DNA from: Roseivivax halotolerans
GTDB lineage: Bacteria > Pseudomonadota > Alphaproteobacteria > Rhodobacterales > Rhodobacteraceae
DNA: 64,000 nucleotides
NCBI RefSeq assembly: GCF_900115815.1
Contig: NZ_FOXV01000004.1
Location: 1-64,000, forward strand
Direction of reading: 5' to 3'
The position numbers were made by a program, and so were the translations under genes. This document shows, one piece after another, positions 217 to 59,840 of this stretch. The notes beneath the pieces are model-generated. The model did no database searches, was not told where the DNA came from, and was given only the letters and a program-made list of their open reading frames with translations. How positions within the stretch are numbered: the stretch's first letter is position 1; every line of letters starts with the position of its first letter.

Positions 217-2358
<2,142 letters not shown>

Positions 2359-5521: not shown

Positions 5522-7480
5522 ATGGCCGAAGACCTTCTCGCGGGCCAAGTGCCCTCAGATTACGACGCCTCCTCGATCGAGGTGCTCGAAGGGCTCGAAC
5601 CCGTCCGAAAACGCCCCGGCATGTATATCGGCGGCACCGACGAGCGCGCGCTGCACCACATGGTGGCCGAGGTCCTCGACAACTCGATGGACGAGGCGGT
5701 CGCGGGCCATGCCAACCGCATCGAGGTGGAGATCCTGCAAGACGGCTCCTGCCTCGTGCGCGACAACGGGCGCGGCATTCCGATCGATCCGCACCCCAAG
5801 TTCCCGGAGAAGTCCGCGCTCGAGGTGATCCTCTGCACTCTGCACGCGGGCGGCAAGTTCTCGGGCAAAGCCTACGAGACCTCGGGCGGCCTGCACGGCG
5901 TCGGGGCCTCGGTGGTCAACGCCCTGTCGGATTCGATGGTCGTCGAAGTCGCCCGCAACCGCGAGCTCTACGTGCAGCGCTTCTCGCGCGGCAAGCCGCT
6001 TGGCCCGGTGGAAAAGGCGGGCCAGGCGCCGAACCGGCGCGGCACGACCGTGACCTTCCATGCGGACCCCGAGATCTTCGGCACGCACAAGCTCAAGCCA
6101 TCGCGGCTCTTCAAGATGGTGCGCTCGAAGGCCTATCTCTTCTCGGGCGTGGAGATCCGCTGGAAATCGGCCATCGACGATGGCGAGACCCCGACCGAGG
6201 CCACCTTCCACTTCCCCGGAGGTCTATCGGATTACCTGACTGAGACCCTGGGCGGCGCGGCCACCTATGCCAGCCAGCCCTTCTCGGGCACGGTCGAGTT
6301 CCGCGAACGCTTCGACCGGCCCGGCAAGGTGGAATGGGCGATCAACTGGACGCCCTCTCGCGACGGCTTCCTGCAGAGCTACTGCAACACGGTGCCGACC
6401 CCCGAAGGCGGCACGCACGAGGCCGGGTTCTGGGCCGCCATCCTCAAGGGCATCCGGGCCTATGGCGATCTCGCGGGCAACAAGAAGGCGCAGAATATCA
6501 CCCGCGACGATCTCGTCACCGGCGGCTGCGCGCTGGTCTCCTGCTTCATCCGCGAGCCGGAATTCGTCGGCCAGACGAAGGACCGGCTGGCCACGACCGA
6601 AGCCGCCAAGCTGGTCGAAGGCGCGGTGCGCGACCGGTTCGACAACTGGCTGGCCTCGGACACAAAGTCCGCGGGCGCAATCCTTGATTTCCTCGTCCTG
6701 CGCGCCGAAGAGCGGATGCGCCGCCGCAAGGAGAAAGAGACGCAGCGCAAATCGGCAACCAAGCGCCTGCGCCTGCCCGGCAAGCTGACCGATTGCACCT
6801 CGAAGACGCGCGAGGGCACGGAGCTTTTCATCGTCGAGGGCGATTCCGCAGGCGGCTCGGCCAAGGGCGCGCGGTTCCGCGAGTTCCAGGCGCTGCTCCC
6901 CTTGCGCGGCAAGGTTCTGAACGTGCTCGGCGCGGCGTCCTCGAAGCTCGGCCAGAATGCCGAGATCAACGATCTCTGCGAAGCGCTCGGCGTCGGGCTC
7001 GGCACGCGGTTCAATCTCGACGATCTGCGCTACGACAAGATCATCATCATGTGCGATGCGGACGTCGACGGCGCGCACATCGCCTCGCTCCTGATGACGT
7101 TCTTCTTCAGCCAGATGCGGCCGCTCATCGATAACGGCCATCTCTACCTGGCATGCCCACCGCTCTACCGGCTCACGCAAGGGCCGAAGCGGCTCTATGT
7201 CGCCGACGAAGCCGAAAAAGAGCTCTGGATGGAGAAAGGGCTCGGCGGGAAAGGCAAGATCGACGTGCAACGTTTCAAGGGTCTCGGCGAAATGGACGCC
7301 AAGGACCTGAAAGAGACGACGATGGACCCCGCGACGCGCAAGCTCATCCGCGTGACCATCGACGAGGACGAGCCCGGCGAGACCGGCGACCTCGTGGAAC
7401 GCCTCATGGGCAAGAAGCCGGAGCTGCGGTTCCAGTATATCCAGGAGAATGCGCGGTTCGTGGAGGAGCTGGATGTGTGA
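5522..7480 (+). CDS. parE: DNA topoisomerase IV subunit B
   Basis: ParE is the ATPase subunit of topoisomerase IV, which with ParC decatenates daughter chromosomes. The 652-residue protein has a GHKL ATPase domain (VLDNSMDEAV N-box near residue 55, GGLHGVGASVVNALS lid near 125), a transducer domain, and a TOPRIM domain with IVEGDSAGGSA near residue 435 and DADVDGAHI near 512, ending in the conserved RFKGLGEMD region. It was assigned as ParE rather than GyrB because it is shorter than GyrB and has the GMYIGGTDERALHHM form of the N-terminal motif. parC is not in the window, so the two subunits are encoded apart. Confidence 0.93.
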   Translation: MAEDLLAGQVPSDYDASSIEVLEGLEPVRKRPGMYIGGTDERALHHMVAEVLDNSMDEAVAGHANRIEVEILQDGSCLVRDNGRGIPIDPHPKFPEKSALEVILCTLHAGGKFSGKAYETSGGLHGVGASVVNALSDSMVVEVARNRELYVQRFSRGKPLGPVEKAGQAPNRRGTTVTFHADPEIFGTHKLKPSRLFKMVRSKAYLFSGVEIRWKSAIDDGETPTEATFHFPGGLSDYLTETLGGAATYASQPFSGTVEFRERFDRPGKVEWAINWTPSRDGFLQSYCNTVPTPEGGTHEAGFWAAILKGIRAYGDLAGNKKAQNITRDDLVTGGCALVSCFIREPEFVGQTKDRLATTEAAKLVEGAVRDRFDNWLASDTKSAGAILDFLVLRAEERMRRRKEKETQRKSATKRLRLPGKLTDCTSKTREGTELFIVEGDSAGGSAKGARFREFQALLPLRGKVLNVLGAASSKLGQNAEINDLCEALGVGLGTRFNLDDLRYDKIIIMCDADVDGAHIASLLMTFFFSQMRPLIDNGHLYLACPPLYRLTQGPKRLYVADEAEKELWMEKGLGGKGKIDVQRFKGLGEMDAKDLKETTMDPATRKLIRVTIDEDEPGETGDLVERLMGKKPELRFQYIQENARFVEELDV

Positions 7481-42226: not shown

Positions 42227-42540
42227 TGCCCCGCCCTTTCACCCCCAAGGTCGTCACCGCCAACGCGCTTCTCGAAGGCGATGTCGTCTATCTGCGCGAA
42301 GATGACGGCTGGACCCGGGAGCTTGCGGACGCCGACGTTCTGACCGACGAGGCGCATGCCCAGGTGCGCCTTCTCGATGCGGAGCGCCGGCCGGGCGAGG
42401 TCGTCGGCGTGTATCTCGCCGATGTCGCACCCACGGAAGCAGGCCCGGAGCCGACGCATTTACGCGAGGACTTCCGCCGCACGGGGCCGTCCAATTATTT
42501 CCACGGCAAGCAGGCCGAGCGCCAGGGCTCTGAAGTTTAA
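42226..42540 (+). CDS. DUF2849 family protein
   Basis: A 104-residue small protein of the DUF2849 family, regularly found between cysG and the sulfite reductase gene in alphaproteobacteria. It is predicted to be beta-rich with no cysteine and no metal motif (FTPKVVTANALLEGDVVYL...). Its ATG shares one base with the cysG stop (TAATG). The constant position suggests a helper role in sulfite reduction or siroheme delivery, but no function is established. Confidence 0.9.
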   Translation: MPRPFTPKVVTANALLEGDVVYLREDDGWTRELADADVLTDEAHAQVRLLDAERRPGEVVGVYLADVAPTEAGPEPTHLREDFRRTGPSNYFHGKQAERQGSEV

Positions 42541-42574
42541 ACGACTTTCAGAGCCGACGCAGAGGAGACCAGAG

Positions 42575-44248
42575 ATGTACACGTATTCCGAGTTCGACGC
42601 CGCCTATGTCGCCAAGCGCAATGCCGAGTTCCGCGCGCAGGTCGAACGCCGCATCGACGGCAGCCTGACCGAGGACGAGTTCAAGCCGCTGCGCCTGATG
42701 AACGGGCTCTACCTTCAGCTGCACGCCTACATGCTGCGCGTTGCCGTCCCTTATGGCACGCTGAATGCGCGCCAGATGCGGCAGCTCGCCATGATCGCGG
42801 AGCGCTGGGACAAGGGCTACGGCCATTTCACCACGCGTCAGAACATCCAGTTCAACTGGCCCGAGCTGCGCGACGTGCCGGACATCCTCGATGCGCTGGC
42901 CGAGGTCGAGATGCACGCCATCCAGACCTCAGGCAATACGATCCGGAACGTGACCGCCGACCATTTCGCCGGTGCCGCTGCGGACGAGATCGCCGATCCG
43001 CGTCCCGTGGCCGAGCTCATCCGGCAATGGTCGACCGACCATCCCGAATTCCAGTTTCTGCCGCGCAAGTTCAAGATCGCGGTCACGGGCTCCCCGAACG
43101 ACCGCGCCGTGACGGCGGCGCATGATATCGGCCTTCGCATCGTCGAACGCGGCAGCGAGATCGGCTATCAGGTGCTCGTCGGCGGCGGTCTCGGCCGGAC
43201 GCCGATGATCGGCAAGGTCATTGCCGAGTTCCTCCGCGAGGAGGATCTCTTGCCCTATCTCGAAGCCATCGTGTCCGTCTGGAACCTGCTTGGCCGGCGA
43301 GACAACAAGTACAAGTCGCGCATCAAGATCACCGTGCACGAACACGGGATCGAGGAAATCCGCGCGCTGGTCGACGACCGCTTTGCCGAATTGCGCCCGG
43401 CCTTCACCGGCATCGATCAAGAGATGCTCGCGACGATCCGCGCCGAATTTGCCGCGCCTGTCTTCCGCGATGCGCCGCTAGACGCCTTTGACGCGGCTTA
43501 CGACAAAGATCCGGCCTTCCGGTCCTGGGTCGACACCAACCTGACCGATCACCGCGCGCCCGGTTACGCGATCGCCGAGATCAGCCTCAAGGCACATGGG
43601 GCCACGCCCGGCGATGCGACGGCGGAGCAGATGCGCGTCATGGCGGACCTCGCCGAGCGCTACGGCCATGACGAGCTTCGCGTCAGCCACGAGCAGAACA
43701 TCGTGCTGCCGCATGTTCACAAGTCCGACCTGCCCGCGCTCCATGCGGAGCTTCAGCGGCACGGGCTTGCCACTGCGAATATCGGCCGGATCAGCGACAT
43801 CATCGCCTGCCCCGGCATGGATTATTGCGCGCTGGCGACCGCGCGCTCCATTCCCATCGCGCAGGAGATCGCAACGCGCTTCGACGAGCTGAAGATCGAG
43901 AACGAGATCGGCGATCTCAAGATCAAGATCTCGGGCTGCATCAATGCCTGCGGGCACCACCATGTCGGGCATATCGGCATTCTCGGCCTCGATCGCGCGG
44001 GCGTGGAGAATTACCAGATCACGCTCGGCGGCGATCACACCGAGGCGGCGAGGGTCGGGCAGCGCACCGGCCCAGGCTTCTCGGCGGAGGAGATCGTGCC
44101 CGCGGTGGAACGCATCGTCGATGCATACCTGATCCTGCGCGACAGCGCCGACGAGCGCTTCATCGACACCTTCGCGCGGGTCGGCATGGACCCGTTCAAG
44201 ACCGCCCTTTACGAGCCGGAGAAAGAGGTCCGTGCCGATGCCGCGTGA
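42575..44248 (+). CDS. cysI: Assimilatory nitrite/sulfite reductase, siroheme [4Fe-4S] hemoprotein
   Basis: This 557-residue enzyme reduces sulfite to sulfide (or nitrite to ammonia) with six electrons. The [4Fe-4S]-siroheme ligands are all visible: C412 and C418 in CPGMDYC and C455 and C459 in GCINACG. The two ferredoxin-like halves (NIR_SIR_ferr) precede the C-terminal 4Fe-4S half. Genomic context with cysH, cysG, DUF934 and a ferredoxin-NADP reductase argues for sulfite as substrate. ATG 42575 has AGGAGA upstream. It ends inside the start of cysH. Confidence 0.94.
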   Translation: MYTYSEFDAAYVAKRNAEFRAQVERRIDGSLTEDEFKPLRLMNGLYLQLHAYMLRVAVPYGTLNARQMRQLAMIAERWDKGYGHFTTRQNIQFNWPELRDVPDILDALAEVEMHAIQTSGNTIRNVTADHFAGAAADEIADPRPVAELIRQWSTDHPEFQFLPRKFKIAVTGSPNDRAVTAAHDIGLRIVERGSEIGYQVLVGGGLGRTPMIGKVIAEFLREEDLLPYLEAIVSVWNLLGRRDNKYKSRIKITVHEHGIEEIRALVDDRFAELRPAFTGIDQEMLATIRAEFAAPVFRDAPLDAFDAAYDKDPAFRSWVDTNLTDHRAPGYAIAEISLKAHGATPGDATAEQMRVMADLAERYGHDELRVSHEQNIVLPHVHKSDLPALHAELQRHGLATANIGRISDIIACPGMDYCALATARSIPIAQEIATRFDELKIENEIGDLKIKISGCINACGHHHVGHIGILGLDRAGVENYQITLGGDHTEAARVGQRTGPGFSAEEIVPAVERIVDAYLILRDSADERFIDTFARVGMDPFKTALYEPEKEVRADAA

Positions 44249-47233: not shown

Positions 47234-48223
47234 TCACGCGTCGCGCGCCCGTCCGCGCGCCGCGACTTCCTTCAAGAGGCCGCCCACGCCCATGCCGGCG
47301 ATATCTTCGGGGCTGACGGGAACGCCGCAGATCAGCCGCTCCATCACCCAATCCGCGCCGTTCAGCGCCGGAGAGCGCGCGCAGCCGGGCAGACCGATCA
47401 CCGGCCTGCCGCCGAGCGTGCCGAAAAAGAGCAGGTTGCCGGGGTCGACCGGCATTCCGAAATGCGCGACCTCACCACCCGCGCGGCGGAGCGCCTCTGG
47501 CGCGGTGTCGCGGCTGTCGGAGGTGGCCGAGCCCGTCAGGATCAGGATCGCTCCGGCCTCGGATGCGGACAGCGCATCCGCCAGAGCGTCTATCTCGTGC
47601 GGGACGACATGCGGATCGGCAAGCGTGACGCCGAGACGGGTTAGCCTGTCCTCGATCGCCTTGTGACCCTTTGCCGGATTGAGGCCACTGCCCACATCCG
47701 TCTGGATGAGTTCGGCATGGTTGAGCGCGGGCGCATGAAAGCTCAAGGCGCCCGCGCCGTGACGCGCCGCCTCCTCGAGAGCCGTGCCCGGAACCGCATA
47801 GGAGATGATCTTGACCGTCGCGACCATGCCGCGCGCGTCCATCCGCTGCCATGGTGGGACGGTCGCCACGGTGATCATCGGATGCGTCGCGTTCAGCGCG
47901 TGGATTTTCGCAGCATCGATGCCCGCGAGCCCCGGACCCTTTGCGAAGATATTGGCGCGGCCCGTCGCGGCCTTGCCGATCCGGAGGCCGGTCTCGCGTT
48001 CGGGCACAATCGCTCGGGCCAGCCGTCCCGCCGCGTCGTCCTCGGTCACGTCGCCGTCCTCGAGCCGGGCGACCACGACATCGTCATGCCCGGTCTCGGC
48101 GAGGCGGTGCAGATCCTCGGGCCCCAGCGTCACGCCCTTTTTCAGCTTACCCCGATTGAGCGACACCGAATGCGCGAGGATCGCGCCCTCGGCCTCGGCA
48201 AGGGGAACGGGGCCGAATTTCAT
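47234..48223 (-). CDS. Molybdopterin-binding (MoCF/MogA-like) protein
   Basis: A 329-residue protein with a MoCF_biosynth-type domain at the C-terminal end (DSRDTAPEALRRAGGEVAHF, IGLPGCARSP near residues 255-300) and an N-terminal half (about 1-150) that is not a standard MoeA domain. It likely binds molybdopterin or molybdopterin-AMP. It overlaps the XdhC gene by ATGA and thus belongs to maturation of a molybdenum hydroxylase. No such hydroxylase subunit is encoded nearby. Confidence 0.82.
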   Translation of the reverse strand: MKFGPVPLAEAEGAILAHSVSLNRGKLKKGVTLGPEDLHRLAETGHDDVVVARLEDGDVTEDDAAGRLARAIVPERETGLRIGKAATGRANIFAKGPGLAGIDAAKIHALNATHPMITVATVPPWQRMDARGMVATVKIISYAVPGTALEEAARHGAGALSFHAPALNHAELIQTDVGSGLNPAKGHKAIEDRLTRLGVTLADPHVVPHEIDALADALSASEAGAILILTGSATSDSRDTAPEALRRAGGEVAHFGMPVDPGNLLFFGTLGGRPVIGLPGCARSPALNGADWVMERLICGVPVSPEDIAGMGVGGLLKEVAARGRARDA

Positions 48224-49188
48224 GATCCGCGCCTCAGAACCCGGGTCATCTCGCCCATGATCGACACGGCGATCTCGGCCGGCCCCGCAGCTCCGATATC
48301 GAGACCGATCGGCCCGTGGATGCGCGCGATCTCGTTCTCGGTAAAGCCCGCCTCCTCGAGCCGGCTCACGCGCTTGGCATGCGTTCGGGTAGACCCCAGC
48401 GCACCGATGTAGAAGCAGCCCGAGCGCAGCGCGCGCATGAGCGCGGGATCGTCGAGCTTGGGATCGTGGGTCAAGAGAACCAGCGCCGTGCGGCTGTCGA
48501 GCCCGGCCGTCTCGACCGCCTCGTCGGGCCAGTCGTTCAGGATCGTCTCGCCCGGAAAGCGCGCCTCGGAGCCGAAGGTCTCGCGCGGGTCGATCAGGAT
48601 GGGATCGTAGCCTGCGATCCGCGCCATCGGCACCAATGCCTGCGCGATATGCACCGCTCCCACGACGACAAGTCGAAGCGGCGGATTGTGGATGGTCACG
48701 AAGGTGCGGCTGTCCTCCTCGAAGCCGGCGCGGTCCATGCGGAACCGGGTCTCGAAACCCGATCGCGCAAGGCGGCGGCTGCCCGCATCGAGATCCGCGA
48801 CGACGGCGACGGGGTCGCGAGCGGCGCGCGCGGCGACGAGTTCTTCCATCAGATCGACCGGCAGGACCGCGCCCAGCGGCTCCACCAGCACCCGGATGGT
48901 TCCGCCGCAGGCGAGCCCGACCGCGAAGGCATCCGCGTCAGAGACACCGAATTCGAGCTCGCGCATCGTGCCGTCCTCGAGCGCTTCCAGCGCCTCGACG
49001 ATCACCGCGCCTTCGACGCAGCCGCCCGAGACAGAGCCAGCGATCGCGCCATCGCCTGAAATCGCCAGTTGCGAGCCGACGCGGCGCGGCGCGGAGCCCC
49101 AGGTCTCGATCACTGTGGCAAGACACGCGCCGCGGCCGGCGTTGTGCCACTTGAGCGCGGTTTCGGGAATCGGGTCGAAACGGTCCAT
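48220..49188 (-). CDS. XdhC/CoxF family molybdoenzyme maturation factor
   Basis: XdhC/CoxI-type proteins bind and sulfurate molybdenum cofactor and insert it into hydroxylases. The 322-residue protein has the N-terminal XdhC_CoxI motifs ETWGSAPRRVGSQLAI and SGGCVEG (residues about 28-60) and a C-terminal Rossmann domain with VVVGAVHIAQALV near residue 165 and LTHDPKLDDPAL near 235. ATG 49188 has GGAGG 7 nt upstream and was preferred over the TTG two codons earlier. Its stop is ATGA-coupled to the molybdopterin-binding gene. Confidence 0.88.
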   Translation of the reverse strand: MDRFDPIPETALKWHNAGRGACLATVIETWGSAPRRVGSQLAISGDGAIAGSVSGGCVEGAVIVEALEALEDGTMRELEFGVSDADAFAVGLACGGTIRVLVEPLGAVLPVDLMEELVAARAARDPVAVVADLDAGSRRLARSGFETRFRMDRAGFEEDSRTFVTIHNPPLRLVVVGAVHIAQALVPMARIAGYDPILIDPRETFGSEARFPGETILNDWPDEAVETAGLDSRTALVLLTHDPKLDDPALMRALRSGCFYIGALGSTRTHAKRVSRLEEAGFTENEIARIHGPIGLDIGAAGPAEIAVSIMGEMTRVLRRGS

Positions 49189-49236
49189 GGGCAATCCTCC
49201 GGGGTCTTCCTAACGCGGCGGGCCGCGCTTGTCGCG

Positions 49237-50415
49237 TCATCCAAAGGTCGGCGCGGTCGGATCGTAACGGTAGAGCCAATCGAATTGCCGCAGCATCAGG
49301 TCCGGCGCGAACGTCCCGCCCGCGCGGAGCACGAGATGCGCCGCATCGCGCAGGCCCGGCATCGCGAGGTGATACTTCCAGGCATTGCCGTTGGCCGCCG
49401 CGATGACGCGCCGCGCCCTCTCCTGCCGCCGTTTCTGGTAGGCTGTGAGAGCCGCCTCCAGCGACGGGGCCGCGCGGCAGGCATCGAACAGCTCCCAGGC
49501 GTCTTCAAGCGCGAGATTCGCGCCCTGCGCCAGGAACGGCAGCGTCGGATGCGCGGCATCGCCCAGAAGCGCGACCCCCTCGCCGTGCCATGTCTCCGCG
49601 ACCGGATGACGAAAAAGCCCCCAGAGCCCCGGCACATCGGCTTCTGCGAGAAGACGCGCCGTGTCGCCGCCGAAATCGGAGAATGCCGCGCGCAGATCCG
49701 AGGGATCGCCGGTGAGCGACCAGCTTTCCTCCGTCCAATCGGCGCGCTCCTGCACCGCGACGAGGTTCACCTCCGCACCATCGCGCAAAGGATAGCTGAC
49801 GACATGGCGATGCGGGCCCATATGCACACGCGCCTCGGGCGGGTGGTTCACCACGTTGGGCACCACGGCGCGCCAGGCCACCTGCCCGGTGAAGTGCGGC
49901 GGCGCGGCGCCGTTGAGGGCCGCGCGGACCACGGAATGCAAACCGTCCGCCCCGAGGATGAGGTCGGCACTGATCCGGTCTCCGTTCGCCATGTGCGCTT
50001 CGGGCCGTGCGCCCGGGCTCACCGATCCGAGTTTCTGCAAAAGGCGGATCTTGCCGCCCTCCTCGCGCACGGCCGAGGCGAGCATGTCGATGAGATCGGC
50101 CCTGTGGACTAGCCGGTATTCCATGCCGGGTCCGAGCCTGCCGAGATCGAGCCGCAGAACCTCCCGGCCCGCTCGGTAGTCGCGCAGAGAGACAGCCGCT
50201 GCCCGAGGCGCGCCGCCCGGAGCCAGCGGAAGGCCGAGCGCCTCGATGACCTTGAGCCCGTTGGGCGAGAGCTGCAGCCCGGCACCGACCTCGCGGATCG
50301 CCTCGGCCTGTTCGTAGACGGTGACGGATGCGCCTGCGCGCCGGAAAGCCAAGGCGGCGGCAAGCCCGCCGATCCCGCCGCCGATGACCGCAATATTGAG
50401 GCCGTCGATCTTCAT
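49237..50415 (-). CDS. FAD-dependent monooxygenase, salicylate hydroxylase-like
   Basis: A 392-residue class A flavoprotein monooxygenase. The N-terminal Rossmann motif VIGGGIGGLAAALAF (residues 10-24), the DG motif (GADGLHSVVR near 160) and GDAAHPTLPFLAQGANLALEDA near 285 are all present. Relatives hydroxylate aromatic acids with NAD(P)H and O2; the exact substrate is unknown. It lies just downstream of dksA on the same strand (73 bp, across dksA's terminator) and 48 bp upstream of XdhC. Confidence 0.85.
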   Translation of the reverse strand: MKIDGLNIAVIGGGIGGLAAALAFRRAGASVTVYEQAEAIREVGAGLQLSPNGLKVIEALGLPLAPGGAPRAAAVSLRDYRAGREVLRLDLGRLGPGMEYRLVHRADLIDMLASAVREEGGKIRLLQKLGSVSPGARPEAHMANGDRISADLILGADGLHSVVRAALNGAAPPHFTGQVAWRAVVPNVVNHPPEARVHMGPHRHVVSYPLRDGAEVNLVAVQERADWTEESWSLTGDPSDLRAAFSDFGGDTARLLAEADVPGLWGLFRHPVAETWHGEGVALLGDAAHPTLPFLAQGANLALEDAWELFDACRAAPSLEAALTAYQKRRQERARRVIAAANGNAWKYHLAMPGLRDAAHLVLRAGGTFAPDLMLRQFDWLYRYDPTAPTFG

Positions 50416-50488: not shown

Positions 50489-50911
50489 TTAATCGTCGCG
50501 ATGCACCTTCTCGCGGCGTTCGTGCTTTTCCTGGGCCTCGAGCGTCATCGTGGCGATCGGGCGCGCGTCGAGACGCTTGAGCGAGATCGGCTCGCCGGTG
50601 ACTTCACAGAAGCCGAACTCTCCTTCTTCGATCCGGCGCAGCGCGGCCTCGATCTTGGAGACGAGCTTGCGCTGGCGATCGCGGGTCCGCAATTCGAGAG
50701 CGCGGTCCGTCTCTTCACTGGCGCGGTCGGTGACATCGGGGATGTTGCGGGTCGAATCCTGCAAGCCTTCGATCGTGTCGCGGCTATCGGCGAGAAGATC
50801 CTGCTTCCAGGTGATCAGCTTGCGGCGGAAATATTCGAGCTGCCGCGGGTTCATGAAATCTTCGTCCTCTGAGGGACGGTACTCGTCGGGAAGGAAGGTC
50901 TCCGGCTTCAT
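50489..50911 (-). CDS. dksA: DksA-type RNA polymerase-binding transcription factor, non-zinc form
   Basis: DksA binds the RNA polymerase secondary channel and with ppGpp adjusts rRNA and amino-acid promoters. The 140-residue protein keeps the coiled-coil tip acidic pair (D59, D62 in PDVTDRA) and overall length. The zinc finger has only one of four cysteines: C102, then T105, T123 and A126 at the other ligand places. Such CxxT...TxxA variants are known in Rhodobacter and as DksA2-type paralogues, so it is probably functional without zinc. ATG 50911 is supported by the family N-terminus. A terminator follows. Confidence 0.93.
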   Translation of the reverse strand: MKPETFLPDEYRPSEDEDFMNPRQLEYFRRKLITWKQDLLADSRDTIEGLQDSTRNIPDVTDRASEETDRALELRTRDRQRKLVSKIEAALRRIEEGEFGFCEVTGEPISLKRLDARPIATMTLEAQEKHERREKVHRDD

Positions 50912-51086
50912 TGCTGCTCCGTAAAAAACCCAGGTTCCCGGCATGGTGATCTACCGGGATATCTGGCACCCCTGTTCCGCGGCTGCGCATAGCTCAAGCC
51001 CGACGCAGTGTCACTACAGAACTTGCATTGCGCAGACTAAATACGGCTTTAGGACACAGCATGAACGCAAGAACGGAGCACCGCGC

Positions 51087-51929
51087 ATGAAATTCGAGGG
51101 AACCGACGCCTACGTCGCCACCGACGATCTGACCATGGCCGTGAATGCCGCCGTCACGCTGGAGCGGCCGCTTCTGGTGAAGGGCGAGCCCGGCACCGGC
51201 AAGACCGAGCTTGCGCGCCAGGTTGCCGCCGCGCTCGGCACCCGGATGATCGAATGGTCGATCAAGTCGACGACGAAGGCGCAGCAGGGTCTGTACGAAT
51301 ACGACGCGGTCAGCCGCCTCCGGGACAGCCAGCTCGGCGACGAGCGGGTGAACGATGTGAAGAACTACATCCGCAAGGGCAAGCTCTGGGAAGCTTTCGA
51401 GGCGGACGAGCGCGTGGTCCTCCTGATCGACGAGGTCGACAAGGCCGATATCGAGTTTCCGAATGACCTTCTGCAGGAACTCGACCGGATGGATTTCTAC
51501 GTCTACGAGACCGGCGAGACGATCCGCGCGCGGCATCGCCCCATCGTCATAATCACCTCGAACAATGAGAAAGAGCTGCCCGACGCGTTCCTGCGCCGCT
51601 GCTTTTTTCACTACATCCGCTTCCCGGAGCCGGACGTTCTGCGCAAGATCGTCGAGGTCCATCACCCCGGCATCAAGCCCGCGCTTCTGACCGAGGCGTT
51701 GACGCAGTTCTACGAGATCCGCGAGCAGCCCGGGCTGAAAAAGAAGCCGTCGACCTCCGAGGTCCTGGACTGGCTGAAACTGCTCCTGGCCGAGGATTTG
51801 CAGCCCGAAGATCTCAAACGCGACGGCGCGGACGCGCTGCCGAAACTGCACGGCGCGCTTCTGAAGAACGAGCAGGACGTGCATCTCTTCGAACGGCTCG
51901 CCTTCATGGCCCGGCGGCAGGGGCGCTGA
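51087..51929 (+). CDS. MoxR family AAA+ ATPase
   Basis: A 280-residue MoxR-type AAA+ ATPase: Walker A GEPGTGKT at residues 33-40, Walker B VVLLIDEVDKAD near 107-118, sensor 1 IVIITSNNEKELPDA near 150 and the arginine-finger segment DAFLRRCFFHYI near 160. MoxR proteins usually work with a VWA partner to activate or remodel other proteins (for example CoxD in CO dehydrogenase maturation). Its own SD (CGGAG, 8 nt) is clear. Its likely VWA partner is encoded 2.3 kb downstream at 54268. It is divergent from dksA. Confidence 0.93.
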   Translation: MKFEGTDAYVATDDLTMAVNAAVTLERPLLVKGEPGTGKTELARQVAAALGTRMIEWSIKSTTKAQQGLYEYDAVSRLRDSQLGDERVNDVKNYIRKGKLWEAFEADERVVLLIDEVDKADIEFPNDLLQELDRMDFYVYETGETIRARHRPIVIITSNNEKELPDAFLRRCFFHYIRFPEPDVLRKIVEVHHPGIKPALLTEALTQFYEIREQPGLKKKPSTSEVLDWLKLLLAEDLQPEDLKRDGADALPKLHGALLKNEQDVHLFERLAFMARRQGR

Positions 51930-52270
51930 GCGTCAGCAGCGACGTCCCGCCTTCGAGTAGACCAGGGCGGCCTGCGCGGGCGCTCAGACCTGATGCGGGG
52001 CTCTTGCCGCAATCCTCCCGAATTCCGGCCGGCGGATTTCCTATTCGTCGGCGAAATCTACAATCGTACATTCGCGCTGTGGCTTAACTGCACAGGGCAG
52101 GCCTCTGTTTTATATAGATCTTTCCAATCACCTGCCTCGCGCGGGCGGCTTTTTGGCCATCGTCGACATCTCGTGTCCATAAATCCTTCTTTCGCCCTAT
52201 AGTGTCCCAACAAGCGACAAAAATCTCCCCGATCACTGTGGCATCTGGAATGAGCAGGCAGACCACATCC
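51930..52270. other. AT-richer intergenic region between moxR and GNAT
   Basis: About 340 bp without a gene. The part from about 52030 to 52250 is noticeably AT-richer than the neighbours and includes TTTTATATAGATC near 52108, a possible -10 region. No good -35 was found and the short open frames on either strand do not look like proteins. Confidence 0.5.
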
Positions 52271-52726
52271 ATGACCGCATCTTCAGACCTCACGGTGCGC
52301 GCGCTGGTGGCCGGGGACCGTGCCGAATGGCAGGCGCTCTGGTCTGCGTATCTCGACTTCTACGAGAGCAGCGTATCGGCCGAGGTTTACGAGACGACCT
52401 TCGCGCGGCTTCTGGACGGTGATCCGCGCAGCCACAGTTGCTTCGTGGCGGAATCGTCGGGGTCTTTGGTCGGCCTCACGCATTACCTGTTTCACCGCCA
52501 TGCCTGGCGCATCGAGGAGGTCTGCTACCTGCAAGACCTTTACGCCGTGCCGGAAATGCGCGGACAGGGCGTGGGCCGCGCGCTGATCGAGGCGGTCTAT
52601 GCCGCCGCAGACGCGCATGGGGCCGAACAGGTCTACTGGCTCACCCAGAGCTTCAACGAGACCGCGCGGAAACTCTACGACCGCATCGGTGTAGAGACCC
52701 CGTTCATCAAGTACCAGAGGCCCTGA
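52271..52726 (+). CDS. GNAT family N-acetyltransferase
   Basis: A 151-residue GNAT acetyltransferase with the acetyl-CoA loop motif LYAVPEMRGQGVGRALIEAV near residue 95 and a typical C-terminal FNETARKLYDRIGV segment. The acyl acceptor is unknown. The start is uncertain: ATG 52271 was taken, with in-frame ATG 52250 and GTG 52202 upstream; none has a strong Shine-Dalgarno. Its stop overlaps the next start (TGATG). It separates the MoxR gene from the DUF2927 and VWA genes, and may be a later insertion. Confidence 0.85.
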   Translation: MTASSDLTVRALVAGDRAEWQALWSAYLDFYESSVSAEVYETTFARLLDGDPRSHSCFVAESSGSLVGLTHYLFHRHAWRIEEVCYLQDLYAVPEMRGQGVGRALIEAVYAAADAHGAEQVYWLTQSFNETARKLYDRIGVETPFIKYQRP

Positions 52727-54093
52727 TGCGTCGTTTGATCCTTCCGCTTTATCTGCTTCTCGGTGCCTGTATGCCCGTCGCGCCGACCGAAACCGCGACC
52801 CGCGCCGCGGTGATCGCGGACAGCACGCTGCCCCCGATGCGCAGCTTCTCGGTGCCACGTCCCTTCCCTACGACGGCCTCGAACGCGGATATCGCGCGCG
52901 ATTTCATCGAATTGTCCTTCGCTCTCGAATCGGGCCGCGCGCTGGAGCGTTTCACCCGCTTCGAGGATCCGATCCGGGTGCGCGTGACCGGACAGCCGCG
53001 CGCCTCCCTCTTCTCCGATCTCGACCAGGTGCTGCATCGATTGCGGACCGAGGCGCAGATCGACGTTGCCCGCGCTACCGGCGATGCCGCGCAGATCACC
53101 GTCGAGGCCGTGCCGCGCGCCGAGATCCGCCGCATCCTGCCGCAAGCGGCCTGTTTCGTGGTGCCGAACGTGTCGTCCTTGCAGGAATACCTGCGCGTGC
53201 GCCGCACAGGCCAGGTCAATTGGTCCAACATGACCGAGCGCAACCGTGTGGCGGTCTTCGTGCCCGCCGATGCCAGCCCGCAGGAGGTGCGCGACTGCCT
53301 CCACGAGGAGTTGGCGCAGGCCATAGGGCCGCTCAACGATCTCTACCGCCTGCCGGATTCGGTTTTCAACGACGACAATGTCCACACGGTGCTGACCGGT
53401 TTCGACATGACGATCCTGCGCGCCTTCTACGATCCGGCGCTGCAATCGGGCATGACTCGCGAAGAGGTCGCCGCGCGGCTTCCGGCGATCCTCGCCCGGA
53501 TCAACCCGGCCGGACAGGGTCAGCGCGCCTCGAATCTCGATGCGACGCCGCGCGGCTGGGTCGATGCCATCCAGGCCGCCCTCGGGCCAGGCACGCCCAA
53601 TCGCGAAGACGCGGCGCGCCAGGCGCTCTCGATCGCGATGGCTATGGGCTGGACGGATCATCGCCGCGGCTTCGCCCACTACGCGATGGGCCGCATCCTC
53701 CAGGCCCGCGATCTCGACGCCGCACTCGCGCAGTTCCGCGAAGCCGACCGCTTCTTCGCTGCTTCGCCGCGCACGCGCCTGCACCGCGCCTATGTCGCCT
53801 CCCAACTCGCCGCCCATGCGATCGCCCGGAACGAACCCGACGCCGCGCTGACCCTTCTGGCGCCGCAAATCGAGGTCGCGGCCCGGCACGAGAATGCGGC
53901 CCTTCTCGCCACGCTTCTGATGCTGCGCGCCGAGGCGCTGGACCTCTCGGGCCGCGTCACCGAAGCGCGGGAAGTGCGTCTGGACAGTCTCGGATGGGCG
54001 CGATACGGGTTCGGCTCGGACGTGGCGGTGCGCGGCAAGATCGACGAGATCGGTGCGCTGAACCCGCTCAAACGGAGGATCGGCTCTCTATGA
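52726..54093 (+). CDS. DUF2927 lipoprotein with degenerate zincin-like and TPR regions
   Basis: A 455-residue lipoprotein (signal ending LLLGAC, acylation at C15). The DUF2927 region carries LHEELAQAIGPLND near residues 192-205, reminiscent of a zincin HExxH helix, but the second histidine is replaced by glutamine, followed by SVFNDDN. From about residue 305 helical TPR-like repeats follow (ALAQFREADRFF, ALTLLAPQIEVAARHE). It should sit in the outer or inner membrane facing the periplasm. It is coupled to GNAT upstream (TGATG) and to a 55-residue membrane protein downstream (ATGA). Confidence 0.82.
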   Translation: MRRLILPLYLLLGACMPVAPTETATRAAVIADSTLPPMRSFSVPRPFPTTASNADIARDFIELSFALESGRALERFTRFEDPIRVRVTGQPRASLFSDLDQVLHRLRTEAQIDVARATGDAAQITVEAVPRAEIRRILPQAACFVVPNVSSLQEYLRVRRTGQVNWSNMTERNRVAVFVPADASPQEVRDCLHEELAQAIGPLNDLYRLPDSVFNDDNVHTVLTGFDMTILRAFYDPALQSGMTREEVAARLPAILARINPAGQGQRASNLDATPRGWVDAIQAALGPGTPNREDAARQALSIAMAMGWTDHRRGFAHYAMGRILQARDLDAALAQFREADRFFAASPRTRLHRAYVASQLAAHAIARNEPDAALTLLAPQIEVAARHENAALLATLLMLRAEALDLSGRVTEAREVRLDSLGWARYGFGSDVAVRGKIDEIGALNPLKRRIGSL

Positions 54094-54257
54094 TCGTGAT
54101 CGTCGCGGCGCTGCTTGGTGCCACTTTCGGGGGTGTGACCGCCAAGCGCCGCAAGGGTGACCGGCTCGATATCCTGCAATACGCCACGATCTACGCCATC
54201 GCTTTTGCACTCGCGGGACTCATCGTCACCATCGCGCTCGAGAAGATTCTGCTGTAA
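54090..54257 (+). CDS. Small two-helix membrane protein
   Basis: A 55-residue protein with two hydrophobic helices (MIVIVAALLGATFGGVTA and YATIYAIAFALAGLIVTIAL) around a basic turn KRRKGDR. Its ATG overlaps the stop of the DUF2927 gene (ATGA), and the VWA gene starts 10 bp later. Comparable small proteins occur at this place in related genomes as far as I recall, sometimes with misleading transferase labels. It may anchor or connect the lipoprotein and the cytoplasmic VWA/MoxR pair; this is an inference. Confidence 0.75.
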   Translation: MIVIVAALLGATFGGVTAKRRKGDRLDILQYATIYAIAFALAGLIVTIALEKILL

Positions 54258-54267
54258 GGCAGAAGCC

Positions 54268-55452
54268 ATGTTCGTCCCGTTCTTCGAAAAGCTGCGCGAC
54301 GCCGGCGTGCCAGTGTCACTGCGCGAATACCTGACGTTCCTCGAGGCGATGCGCGCGGGCCTGGCGACCTACGATATCGAAGGGTTCTACTACCTCGCCC
54401 GTGCGGCGATGGTGAAGGACGAGCGGCATATCGACCGCTTCGACCGGGCCTTCTCGGCGGCGTTCTCGGGGCTCGAGGCGATCGATACCGAAGCGCTCAT
54501 CGAGGCGATGGATCTGCCCGAGGACTGGCTGCGGAAAATGTCCGAAAAGCATCTCTCCGAAGAAGAGAAGGCGGAGATCGAGGCCATGGGCGGATTCGAC
54601 AAGCTCATGGAAACGCTCAAGAAACGCCTGGAGGAACAGAAAGGCCGGCACCAGGGCGGCTCCAAATGGGTCGGCACCGGCGGCACCTCGCCTTTCGGCG
54701 CCTACGGCTACAACCCCGAGGGCGTCCGCATCGGGCAGAACGAGAGCCGTCACCGCCGCGCCGTCAAGGTCTGGGACAAGCGCGAGTTTCGAGAATACGA
54801 CGATTCCATCGAGATCGGCACGCGCAACATCAAGGTCGCATTGAAGCGCCTGCGAAAATGGGCCCGCGACGGCGCGGCCGAAGAGCTCGACCTGCCCGGC
54901 ACGATCCGGTCCACCGCCGAGCAAGGCTGGCTCGACGTTAAGACCCGGCCCGAGCGCCGGAACGCAGTGAAGGTGCTTCTTTTTCTCGATGTCGGCGGCT
55001 CGATGGACGATCATATCCGCGTCGTCGAAGAGCTGTTCTCCGCCGCCCGCTCCGAGTTCAAGCACCTTGAGCATTTCTACTTCCACAACTGCCTCTACGA
55101 AGGCGTCTGGCGCGACAATCGCCGCCGCTGGGATCAGCAGACTCCAACCGCCGAGGTGCTGCGGACCTACGGGTCCGACTACAAGTGCATCTTCGTCGGC
55201 GATGCCTCGATGAGCCCCTACGAGATCGCAATGCCGGGCGGCGCGAACGAGCACTGGAACCAGGAAGCCGGGCAGACCTGGCTCATGCGGGCGCGGGCGC
55301 AGTGGCCTGATCACATGTGGATCAATCCTGTCCCCGAGAAATACTGGCAATATACCCAATCGATCGGGATGATCCGGGAGATCTTCGAGGACCGGATGGT
55401 GCCGATGACGCTCGAGGGGATCGAGGCAGGGATGCGCGAGCTCAGCCGATAG
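54268..55452 (+). CDS. VWA domain protein, CoxE-like
   Basis: A 394-residue cytoplasmic protein: a helical N-terminal region (DAGVPVSLREYLTFLEAM), a charged glutamate/lysine-rich linker near residues 95-130, then a VWA domain with a variant MIDAS DVGGSMDD near residue 240. CoxE-type proteins pair with MoxR ATPases. The C-terminus has conserved INPVPEKYWQYTQSI. It closes the operon GNAT-DUF2927-small membrane protein-VWA; its expected MoxR partner lies upstream of GNAT. Client protein unknown. Confidence 0.9.
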   Translation: MFVPFFEKLRDAGVPVSLREYLTFLEAMRAGLATYDIEGFYYLARAAMVKDERHIDRFDRAFSAAFSGLEAIDTEALIEAMDLPEDWLRKMSEKHLSEEEKAEIEAMGGFDKLMETLKKRLEEQKGRHQGGSKWVGTGGTSPFGAYGYNPEGVRIGQNESRHRRAVKVWDKREFREYDDSIEIGTRNIKVALKRLRKWARDGAAEELDLPGTIRSTAEQGWLDVKTRPERRNAVKVLLFLDVGGSMDDHIRVVEELFSAARSEFKHLEHFYFHNCLYEGVWRDNRRRWDQQTPTAEVLRTYGSDYKCIFVGDASMSPYEIAMPGGANEHWNQEAGQTWLMRARAQWPDHMWINPVPEKYWQYTQSIGMIREIFEDRMVPMTLEGIEAGMRELSR

Positions 55453-56063: not shown

Positions 56064-56756
56064 ATGCTGAAGCTCACCCCGATCATTTTCGCGATTCTCT
56101 ACGCGCTGGCGATGTACCGATTTTCCGCCTGGCGGACGGGCAAGGAGCTCGACGAGAAGTCGACCGAGCTCGCCGATCCGGGATTGCGCGACATCCTTGG
56201 CAAGCTCGCCCGCGCGCTCGATGTGCCGCGCATCAAGGTTCATATCTACGAGATCGACCCGGTGAACGGGCTCGCCGCGCCCGATGGGCGCATCTTCATC
56301 ACCCGCGGCTTTTACCGGAAATACCGCTCTGGCGAGGTGTCGGGAGAAGAGCTGGCCTCGGTCATCGCCCATGAGCTCGGACACGTTGCGCTTGGCCATT
56401 CCAAGCGGCGCATGATCGACTTCTCGGGGCAGAACGCGATCCGTGCGGCACTTGCGATGGTGCTGGGTCGGATCATTCCCGGCATCGGTGTCTGGATCGC
56501 CAATGCCTTGACGTCCCTCCTGGCCGCACGGCTGTCGCGCGGGGACGAGTTCGAGGCCGACGCCTATGCAGCGGCGCTTCTGACGAAGGCCGGAATCGGT
56601 GTCGGCCCGCAGAAATCCCTCTTCAAGAAGCTCGAAGCATTGACCGGCGCTCGTGCGGGCGCGGTGCCCGCATGGCTCATGAGCCACCCCAAGACCGAAG
56701 AGCGCGTGGCCGCGCTCGAGGCGCTCGAGGCGCGCTGGCAGACCGTGGAGGGGTGA
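56064..56756 (+). CDS. M48 family zinc metallopeptidase, membrane-anchored
   Basis: A 230-residue M48 peptidase (HtpX/Ste24-like). A single N-terminal membrane helix (LTPIIFAILYALAMY) is followed by the catalytic domain with HELGH at residues 103-107 and the third-ligand glutamate in DEFEADAYA near 158. The middle stretch around 133-152 (RIIPGIGVWIANALTSLLAA) may be a second membrane-associated helix. Substrates are probably damaged membrane proteins. It begins 32 bp after the OsmC terminator and converges with the AlkC-like gene. Confidence 0.9.
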   Translation: MLKLTPIIFAILYALAMYRFSAWRTGKELDEKSTELADPGLRDILGKLARALDVPRIKVHIYEIDPVNGLAAPDGRIFITRGFYRKYRSGEVSGEELASVIAHELGHVALGHSKRRMIDFSGQNAIRAALAMVLGRIIPGIGVWIANALTSLLAARLSRGDEFEADAYAAALLTKAGIGVGPQKSLFKKLEALTGARAGAVPAWLMSHPKTEERVAALEALEARWQTVEG

Positions 56757-57937: not shown

Positions 57938-58688
57938 CGGCGAGGATGTTCTGCCCCACGATGTATCCGGCATGCTGCGAGCACAGGAACGCGCAGGTGC
58001 GCCCGAACTCCGCCGCGGTCCCGTAGCGCCGCACCGGAATGGTCTTGAACTTGGCGGCGCGCACGTCCTCTAGGCTGGTGCCTTGCGTGTCCGCCGCGGC
58101 GCGGTCGAGCGCGTCGATCCGGTCGGTGTCATGCGCGCCCGGCAGAAGGTTGTTGATCGTCACGCCATGCTGGGCGACCTGTCGCGAGGTGCCCGCGACG
58201 AAGCCGGTGAGCCCGGCCCGCGCCGAGTTCGAGAGTCCCAGCGCCGGGATCGGTGCCTTGACCGATTGCGAGGTGATGTTGACGACGCGGCCCCAGCCCT
58301 TCTCCATCATGCCTGGCAGCATGGCTTGCATCAGCGCGATGGGGGTCAGCATGTTCGCCTCCAGCGCGGCGATGAAATCGTCCCGGCTCCAGTCCGACCA
58401 GACACCCGGCGGGGGGCCGCCTGCATTGGTCACGAGGATGTCGACCTGTCCTGCCGCCTCGAGGACGGCGGCGCGACCCTCCTCGGAGACGATGTCGGCG
58501 GCCAGCACTGTCACCTCGACCCCGTGCGCGTCGCGGATTGCCTGCGCTGTTGCCGAAAGCGCCTCTTCGCCTCGCGCGTTCAGTACAAGGTCGACGCCCG
58601 CTTCGGCCAGCGCTTCGGCGCAGCCTCGCCCGAGACCTTTCGACGATGCCGTTACCAGTGCCCTTTTGCCAGAGATGCCCAGATCCAT
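57909..58688 (-). CDS. SDR family oxidoreductase, atypical active site
   Basis: A 259-residue short-chain dehydrogenase/reductase. The cofactor loop is SSKGLGRG at residues 15-22 and the NAGG motif replaces NNAG at 88-91. The catalytic serine is S140, but the positions of the canonical tyrosine and lysine (S+13 and +17) are S153 and R157. The same SN..R pattern occurs in a subgroup of bacterial SDRs, so it is not random damage. Activity and substrate are unknown. An AAAGGAC ribosome site precedes ATG 58688; it overlaps the start of the alkylation repair gene. Confidence 0.88.
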   Translation of the reverse strand: MDLGISGKRALVTASSKGLGRGCAEALAEAGVDLVLNARGEEALSATAQAIRDAHGVEVTVLAADIVSEEGRAAVLEAAGQVDILVTNAGGPPPGVWSDWSRDDFIAALEANMLTPIALMQAMLPGMMEKGWGRVVNITSQSVKAPIPALGLSNSARAGLTGFVAGTSRQVAQHGVTINNLLPGAHDTDRIDALDRAAADTQGTSLEDVRAAKFKTIPVRRYGTAAEFGRTCAFLCSQHAGYIVGQNILADGGGINATL

Positions 58689-58823
58689 GTCCTGTCCTTT
58701 TCTTGTTGCCGATACGTCGATAAAAGACCCGCATACCGGCCCTTTGATGACATATTTGATCACGAATTATGGGGGCAGAGTGACCTGTTTCGCGCCCGAG
58801 CGCGAGTAGAGAGAGTGCCCCTG

Positions 58824-59840
58824 ATGCCGAAACCCGGCTCCGCGAGGTCCGCCCAGTCCCTGTCCGTCTTCCGGGCAGAGCATTTTCGCGTCGTGAATGG
58901 CGCGAATCTGGGGGATCCGGTCGGCTTTGCGGGCGAGATCGAACTCGACGATATCTACCGACTGTCGCCCGTGGCGCATGAGGTCACATTGCGTGTCGTG
59001 CCGCATCCCGATCGCCCGTTCTCGGTCGCACCGGGCACCGAGGTCGGCGAGCCGGGCGCCGCCCTACACCTCGATTGCGCGCTGACGCTGATGTCGGGCG
59101 ATGGCGAGACGACAGAGGCGATCGTGCTCGTTGAAACCGATGACGAGGGCGATGTCGCGGACACCTATCTTCTACCCCTCGCGCCGATCACGCCCAAGCG
59201 GGACTACGCGCTCGTGGGGGTTGATACCGAGAACGCGCTGTCGAGCTTTGCCCAGCAGGCTTGCGTGTCGTTCACGCGCGGCACACTCATCGCGCTTGCC
59301 ACCGGAGAGCAGCGCGCGGTCGAAGATCTGAAGGTCGGCGACAAGGTTCTGACCCGCGATGACGGCCCGCAGCCAATCCGCTGGATCGGGCAGCGCACCA
59401 CACGCGCGGTGGGCGGCTTTGCGCCGGTGGAGATCAAGGCGGGTGTTCTCAACAATCTCAACGATCTGGTCGTCAGTCCCGATCACAGGCTCTTCATCTA
59501 CCAGCGCAGCGACGAGCTTGGCGCGGGACGCTCCGAGCTTCTGGTCCGCGCGCGGCACCTCGTGAACGGGGAGACGATCCGCCAACTGTCGGGAGGCTTC
59601 GTCGATTATTTCCAGATGCTCTTCGATCAGCATCAGATCATCTTCGCGGAAGGTATAGCCGCTGAATCCATGCTCGTGGACGAGCGGACCGCCGCCATTC
59701 TGCCGGGCGAGCTCGGCGATCGATTGTCGGCGCTGCTGCCGGATCACGAGGAAAGCTCGCACAGCGCCCTCGAGGTTGCGGAGGATCTTTTGAAACGAGC
59801 GGATGCGATATCCGCCTTGCGAAAATCGTCGAGCGGATAA
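58824..59840 (+). CDS. Hint-domain protein (hedgehog/intein-type module)
   Basis: A 338-residue protein with a beta-rich N-terminal region (about 1-146) and a Hint domain beginning at C147 (CVSFTRGTLIAL), followed by VEDLKVGDKVLTRDDGPQPIRWIG and the block SPDHRLFI near 220. Bacterial Hint modules of this kind self-cleave or form protein splices through the N-terminal cysteine. The helical C-terminal tail (about 300-338) could be a released product or a partner-binding part. No signal peptide is evident. It is divergent from the SDR gene. Confidence 0.85.
   Translation: MPKPGSARSAQSLSVFRAEHFRVVNGANLGDPVGFAGEIELDDIYRLSPVAHEVTLRVVPHPDRPFSVAPGTEVGEPGAALHLDCALTLMSGDGETTEAIVLVETDDEGDVADTYLLPLAPITPKRDYALVGVDTENALSSFAQQACVSFTRGTLIALATGEQRAVEDLKVGDKVLTRDDGPQPIRWIGQRTTRAVGGFAPVEIKAGVLNNLNDLVVSPDHRLFIYQRSDELGAGRSELLVRARHLVNGETIRQLSGGFVDYFQMLFDQHQIIFAEGIAAESMLVDERTAAILPGELGDRLSALLPDHEESSHSALEVAEDLLKRADAISALRKSSSG

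Follow-up and report, generated by a model that had tools for sequence, protein, structure and literature searches.

A MoxR-VWA gene pair and a separable set of envelope genes at a conserved locus of Rhodobacteraceae

Pairs of a MoxR-type AAA+ ATPase and a von Willebrand factor A (VWA) protein have been described in several systems, of which three are compared here: NorQ-NorD (metal insertion into cNOR), CoxD-CoxE (CO dehydrogenase maturation) and RavA-ViaA of Escherichia coli. The model put forward for NorQD has a MoxR hexamer with the VWA protein in its pore and the metal ion-dependent adhesion site (MIDAS) of the latter facing the client (PMC9976466). We analysed a stretch of 64,000 nucleotides of Roseivivax halotolerans (contig NZ_FOXV01000004.1, positions 1 to 64,000; hereafter the window) from an assembly of 3.77 Mb in 45 contigs. 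In it a moxR and a vwa gene enclose genes for a GNAT acetyltransferase, a DUF2927 lipoprotein and a small protein with two hydrophobic segments. The reading we favour, with about even confidence, is that this locus holds two modules: an ancient MoxR-VWA chaperone and a separable envelope cassette.

The window pair resembles NorQ-NorD in that a small MoxR-type AAA+ protein is coupled to a VWA protein, whose predicted model found NorD as its best Foldseek match. It differs from it in the length of the VWA protein (394 amino acids, against 70 kDa for NorD), in a MIDAS of the form DxGxS instead of DxSxS, in a MoxR without a CbbQ_C match at E 0.01, and in its surroundings, where no recurrent neighbour was recognised as a nor gene when the clusters were read by eye. 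With CoxD-CoxE the pair shares the MoxR-VWA arrangement and a VWA_CoxE match of 33.1 bits; however, no CO dehydrogenase was found at the loci, and the pair occurs across Pseudomonadota without a constant operon of that kind. RavA-ViaA is likewise a MoxR and VWA pair that acts as a chaperone. RavA is larger than the window MoxR. The titles and abstract openings that we searched contained no work recognisably on the present pair.

The separation of the two gene sets was seen in genomes that lack part of the locus. The family sample consisted of one genome from each of 100 genera, 91 of them of good quality. VWA was found in 94 of the 100, MoxR at E 1e-30 in 93 (one of them, G008, with no more than a paralogue-level match), DUF2927 in 95, usually with at least two matches of which one adjoins VWA, and the M48 metalloprotease at E 1e-30 in 96. 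Among the 91 good genomes VWA is absent from six (G030, G054, G059, G065, G085 and G094) and MoxR from the same ones minus G054. The joint absence in five has a chance probability of p ~1.3e-7, a value that ignores shared ancestry except for three tree-tested genomes. Three of these five (G030, G065 and G094) keep DUF2927 with the small protein directly after it; in a DUF2927 tree, which has one very long branch (L068) and in which G030 was flagged for its letter make-up, their losses need three changes, at least two of them forced by well-supported branches. G094 has DksA followed by DUF2927 with no MoxR in between, and the small protein followed by M48 with no VWA; the genes that MoxR and VWA would otherwise flank are still there. 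G059 and G085 have also lost the locus-type DUF2927 and retained the small protein, which is kept in all five genomes and is the most persistent member of the envelope gene set. It lies in G085 between DksA and an abutting M48, with MoxR, GNAT, DUF2927 and VWA absent from the stretch; M48 also follows it directly in G094 and after about 0.3 kb in G065, all three being without VWA. From this pattern of losses MoxR and VWA act as one unit, and the set of envelope genes can be separated from it. For the loci themselves we analysed 80 stretches, 77 from the 94 VWA-bearing genomes together with G054, G065 and G094. DUF2927 is missing from 11 of the 77 VWA loci, and its presence there shows only a weak association with that of VWA (66/77 with VWA versus 3/6 without, Fisher p 0.057). 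Because either gene set thus occurs naturally without the other, the DUF2927 lipoprotein is probably not what the MoxR-VWA chaperone exists to serve.

The pair is also found far outside the family. In a class-wide sample of 240 genomes VWA was recovered from 97 (three from the family), and in a phylum-wide sample of 299 from 104 (14 from the family), with an identity of 48-71% outside the family. We hand-picked 60 non-family loci for contig room and spread, 40 from the 97 class genomes and 20 from the 104 phylum genomes. MoxR precedes VWA in 56 of them, with a gap of at most 195 bp in 45, and four have no MoxR in the stretch. Neither DUF2927 nor the small protein was detected in the 60 loci by tblastn with the window proteins, a search that a diverged small protein could escape, as nine family members first did; in 43 loci the gap between MoxR and VWA (≤140 bp) is too short for the small gene. 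Of the 240 class genomes 35 carry the DUF2927 domain itself, and in the 23 non-family class genomes that carry both VWA and DUF2927 the two lie on different contigs (20) or more than 400 kb apart (3). Neighbour clustering of the 40 class and 20 phylum loci gave no constant third gene: the recurrent class neighbours read by eye were alaS (12/40) and recA (11/40), in one locus on the other strand, and no phylum neighbour besides MoxR and VWA was present in more than 4/20. As the pair stands without DUF2927 and the small protein outside the family, it is more widespread than its association with these envelope genes and presumably predates it.

Within the family the genes form a block, in the order DksA (on the minus strand), MoxR, GNAT where present, DUF2927, small protein, VWA and, where present, M48. 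To control for flanks we counted 71 VWA loci with full flanks (six of the 77 were dropped); where spacers are longer, genes of the outer flank could still fall outside the stretch. MoxR holds its usual position in 58 of the 71 (one further match is to a minus-strand paralogue), DUF2927 is present in 62, M48 in 49 and GNAT in 39. The outer neighbours are rare: XdhC 7/71, MoCF 7/71, Hint 4/71, RF3 3/71 and SDR 1/71; OsmC, which lies inside the block in the window, was found in 3/71. The co-occurrence of the genes is therefore more than chance, contrary to the random association that a preliminary description of the window had named as damaging to its proposal. Of the 77 VWA loci, 54 have MoxR, DUF2927 and the small protein as well. 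VWA is preceded by the small protein in 74 of the 77 (gap ≤16 bp in 56); the small protein in turn follows DUF2927 in 66 loci, in 64 of which the two genes overlap or are less than 50 bp apart. GNAT precedes DUF2927 in 39 loci, with overlapping ends in 27, and the order is held down to about 63% VWA identity (L077, that is, G058). The window itself conforms: the four genes named in the preliminary description were all recovered at the positions it gave, and the close joining of the last three that it reported was borne out as a 4-bp overlap between DUF2927 and small gene (54090-54093) and a 10-bp gap before the VWA gene (54258-54267). That description had left out the GNAT gene, which begins 341 bp after MoxR and whose end overlaps the DUF2927 start as TGATG.

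Table 1. Features of the window at and around the MoxR-VWA locus
Feature	Position	Strand	Evidence or remark
Nitrite/sulphite reductase-type protein	42356-44248		NIR_SIR 212 bits
Molybdopterin-binding-domain (MoCF_biosynth) protein	47234-48223	-	2-4 kb upstream of MoxR
XdhC/CoxI-family protein	48220-49194	-	2-4 kb upstream of MoxR, beyond the FAD monooxygenase
FAD monooxygenase	49237-50415	-	divergent, upstream of MoxR, next to DksA
DksA-type RNA polymerase-binding protein	50489-50944	-	TIGR02420 143.3 bits (cut-off 115.5); divergent from MoxR
MoxR-type AAA+ ATPase, 280 amino acids	51087-51929	+	AAA_5 49.8 bits (cut-off 22)
GNAT acetyltransferase	52271-52726	+	Acetyltransf_1 E 2.5e-17
DUF2927 lipoprotein, lipobox LGAC	52726-54093	+	PF11150 178.4 bits (cut-off 26.2)
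Domains of the DUF2927 lipoprotein	residues ~54-253; ~273-440		metzincin-like; TPR repeats
55-amino-acid protein, two hydrophobic segments	54090-54257	+	hydropathy and conserved residues
CoxE-like VWA protein, 394 amino acids, MIDAS variant DxGGSMD	54268-55452	+	PF05762 33.1 bits (cut-off 26.4)
OsmC	from 55538		after VWA, inside the block in this window
M48 metalloprotease, N-terminal hydrophobic segment	~56064-56756	+	Peptidase_M48 86.1 bits; start codon inferred
Hint_2-domain protein	58083-59840		144 bits

The small protein carries G10, G14, A18, G23 and D27 in 75/75 relatives, residues that give a helix face of the form GxxxGxxxA and, after it, a basic loop containing the Asp; D27 was also read in four genomes without VWA (G094, G065, G030 and G059). 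Nine of the members were recognised by eye in lists of open reading frames (ORFs) after tblastn had missed them, and an ORF of 101 amino acids in L074, maybe a tenth, was left uncounted. At L202 (G083:C58:237000-249000) a GNAT and a small-protein match adjoin or overlap each other at 5639-6225, with VWA on another contig. As GNAT stands there beside the small protein and away from VWA, it may belong to the cassette of the small protein.

The DUF2927 lipoprotein was inspected more specifically. PF11150 was matched by 57/57 family sequences and the lipobox Cys15 is present in 55 of the 57; the +2 residue is mostly A, M, T or S and mostly not Asp, from which the predicted lipoprotein may be sorted to the outer membrane. 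An AlphaFold2 model built from the 57 sequences has a predicted local distance difference test (pLDDT) score of 92.4. For the C-terminal half of the model, VIA matched TPR proteins (Z up to 17.8, root-mean-square deviation (rmsd) 3.7, 161 aligned), and TPR_12 was found in 15 of the 57 relatives. The Foldseek top 50 include the matrix metalloproteinases (MMPs) MMP-3, -13, -1, -10 and -12 (E 0.011-0.084, probability 0.99-1.00), in a whole-model search that gave no aligned range and no match at E 0.001; these matches probably cover the N-terminal domain. Against a metzincin origin stand the sequence-profile searches (Pfam and solved structures), which returned TPR proteins and no metzincin. There was also no metzincin among the 50 VIA rows, nearly all of them TPR. 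By sequence, no solved chain matched the protein better than E 0.07. Metzincins carry the zinc motif HExxHxxGxxH. At the corresponding positions the lipoprotein has E194 E195 xx Q198 xx G201 xx N204 D205, with E194, E195, Q198, G201 and D205 in 57/57 relatives and one N204D, and it thus departs from the peptidase motif in having E, Q and D at the ligand positions throughout. Five DUF2927 paralogues show the same EExxQxxGxxxD-type pattern. A further 20 DUF2927 loci were taken from the rest of the class, as a subset of the class matches listed: the motif was EExxQxxGxxxD in 15 and HExxHxxGxxxH in two (L184 and L188), it was further degraded in two (L185 and L186), and it was not found in one (L187). 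The two distant proteins with the intact motif (L184, G163:C414:10700-13200; L188, G301:C1:1184000-1186500) look like active relatives of the degenerate majority; by eye, L188 runs on into a repeat-like C-terminus. The MMP matches and these two members would link the domain to the metzincins; compared with HExxHxxGxxH, the intact members have their third ligand shifted by one residue toward the C-terminus. A metzincin origin of DUF2927, with the ligands swapped in most members, is probable, and it seems rather likely that these members traded three zinc ligands for E, Q and D and kept the catalytic Glu, with a new metal site or a pseudo-enzyme as the result. BepA is an M48 protease fused to TPR repeats. 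The present locus resembles it in combining TPR and metalloprotease-type domains in the envelope and an M48 gene in the same block; it differs in that the domain joined to the TPR repeats is a degenerate metzincin-like one and that M48 stands as a protein of its own; the window M48 scores 41.5 bits, far short of the BepA cut-off of 570. We found no mention of DUF2927 in the literature searched.

MoxR qualifies as an AAA_5 member, being over the cut-off with its ATPase motifs intact: GEPGTGKT, LLIDEiDKAD and ITSNN (Walker A, Walker B and sensor 1) are conserved in 62 family sequences. CbbQ_C, the mark of the NorQ/CbbQ group, was not among the 15 Pfam families matched at E 0.01. Two more specific assignments were rejected, MadB (NF047784), the nearest NCBIfam model (129.5 bits versus a cut-off of 475), a name under which the papers found concern other proteins, and bpMoxR of the MoxR-vWA-beta-propeller ternary systems (23 bits versus 27). 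The best solved chains by sequence were midasins. In the VWA protein the best PF05762 stretch covers residues 188-275 only. D241, G243, S245 and D312 are present in 33/33 relatives and T294, whose role in the MIDAS is assumed, in 32/33; a classical MIDAS reads DxSxS ... T ... D (PMC9976466), from which the DxGxS of this protein, with its invariant G243, departs. No solved chain matched the VWA sequence at E 1. The predicted model is weak (pLDDT 68.8, residues 120-174 below 50) and we therefore claim nothing for the fold of the N-terminal part. Its Foldseek match to the NorD VWA (9qhe_G, E 3.6e-4, TM-score 0.26/0.39) was the only one below 0.001; by VIA, over the C-terminal part, midasin came first (Z 10.5, rmsd 4.0, 176 aligned) and NorD 9qh8_G gave Z 9.4 (rmsd 6.9, 188 aligned). 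RSP_1024, listed as a 'putative MoxR family protein' among the CenR targets of Rhodobacter sphaeroides (PMC9275681), was not equated with the window MoxR, since it is listed there with a transmembrane domain. Anti-phage defence was likewise set aside: PADLOC gave at best 27.5 bits, in weak ATPase matches for MoxR, and nothing for the other three proteins scanned.

On the two-module reading, the first module would be an old and self-contained MoxR-VWA chaperone whose client is encoded elsewhere. By analogy with NorQD, a MoxR hexamer would serve as the motor and the VWA protein as an adaptor in its pore, gripping a client that faces the cytosol. The second would be a family-specific envelope cassette, made up of the ligand-substituted metzincin-like/TPR lipoprotein, a two-helix membrane peptide and often GNAT and M48, which may have been inserted between moxR and vwa in the ancestor of the family and would probably act as a scaffold or pseudo-protease in envelope proteostasis. 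What makes the locus interesting is mainly the MoxR-VWA pair, with its spread across the phylum, and the DUF2927 domain with its swapped ligands. The uncharacterised pair is spread over much of the phylum, and a dispensable lipoprotein neighbour turns the search for its client toward conserved cytosol-facing proteins; a metzincin-derived DUF2927 would give a family of unassigned function a fold and a candidate metal site. Several observations weigh against the two-module reading, among them the limits noted above for the co-absence probability and for tblastn. G054 has MoxR without VWA (a clear small protein was not seen there either, best E 0.4). The spacing from GNAT through DUF2927 and the small protein to VWA is operon-tight, and in eight of the 11 VWA loci that lack DUF2927 the small protein is still found ahead of VWA, in one case at a distance of 2.2 kb; together these favour a functional connection of some kind. 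A 4-bp overlap of moxR with GNAT in five loci, of which one has a frame-split MoxR, means that moxR can share the transcription unit. The probable proteostasis role of the cassette is itself read from domain types only.

We prefer the two-module reading to plain synteny, that in turn to the system proposed in the preliminary description, and a molybdoenzyme role comes last. Under plain synteny the genes would be neighbours through inheritance and shared expression, with no common task. The block also takes in DksA (57/71) and the FAD monooxygenase (52/71 in place, 53 in all), which are nearly as conserved as MoxR and have no obvious common function, and caution is therefore due in inferring function from it; that the two modules are lost independently points the same way. 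The sharp edges of the block, the operon-tight spacing and an order kept at such low VWA identity speak against it, and we consider it somewhat unlikely. The preliminary description had proposed a candidate envelope chaperone or quality-control system with a periplasmic client reached through a membrane protein, taken here to mean that MoxR-VWA would remodel or activate the DUF2927 lipoprotein, or a complex holding it, by way of the two-helix protein. The tight and conserved same-strand order would suit this, as would the many loci with all four genes and the invariant D27, which could be a MIDAS ligand if its polar loop is cytosolic. However, that Asp is also present in VWA-less genomes, the lipoprotein has an export signal and the MoxR and VWA sequences by eye have none, and, as regards the lipoprotein as client, the two halves come apart in both directions within the family and the pair stands without DUF2927 or small protein outside it. 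As MoxR-VWA and the envelope genes dissociate, this proposal is weakened, and we think it unlikely. A bolder form of it, an ATP-driven trans-envelope chaperone, would have cytosolic MoxR-VWA pull on or signal via the two-helix peptide, with the loop Asp as MIDAS ligand and the GxxxGxxxA face packed in the membrane, and so control the ligand-swapped metzincin-like TPR lipoprotein and the M48 protease across the membrane; this is in our view quite improbable.

The remaining alternative, and by far the least probable, is a CoxDE-like pair for the maturation of a molybdoenzyme, with XdhC and the molybdopterin-binding protein as fellow maturation factors. The CoxE family match of VWA agrees with it, as do the XdhC_CoxI and MoCF_biosynth proteins of the window. 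Their presence also qualifies the earlier remark that no CO or methanol dehydrogenase genes lie nearby, which stood in so far as none was seen among the 19 proteins scanned, which are a part of the window's ORFs. A molybdo-hydroxylase domain (MoCoBD_1 search) was found in 100/100 family genomes; since these include the five without MoxR and VWA, its presence does not discriminate. Only seven of the 71 family loci have XdhC nearby, and only seven MoCF; the 60 non-family loci gave one XdhC and no MoCF match, and a constant third gene was likewise not found there. Thus no molybdoenzyme operon is the constant partner; such a partner was what the preliminary description had named as damaging to its own proposal. 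With no constant molybdoenzyme-type neighbour in the family or outside it membership of CoxDE was rejected.

Some minor observations remain. A scan for promoter-like sites in the region found none, and terminator-like sites seen in the MoxR-GNAT and OsmC-M48 intervals (six in the region versus 4.5 expected) were not used as evidence. VWA appears split in two frames in G009:C3:749862-751044 and MoxR in G013:C1:3173253-3174085, in both of which a pseudogene and a sequencing error look alike. Relatives of the lipoprotein in named genomes numbered six, titled Rhodobacteraceae (three), Roseovarius, Celeribacter and Mangrovicoccus.

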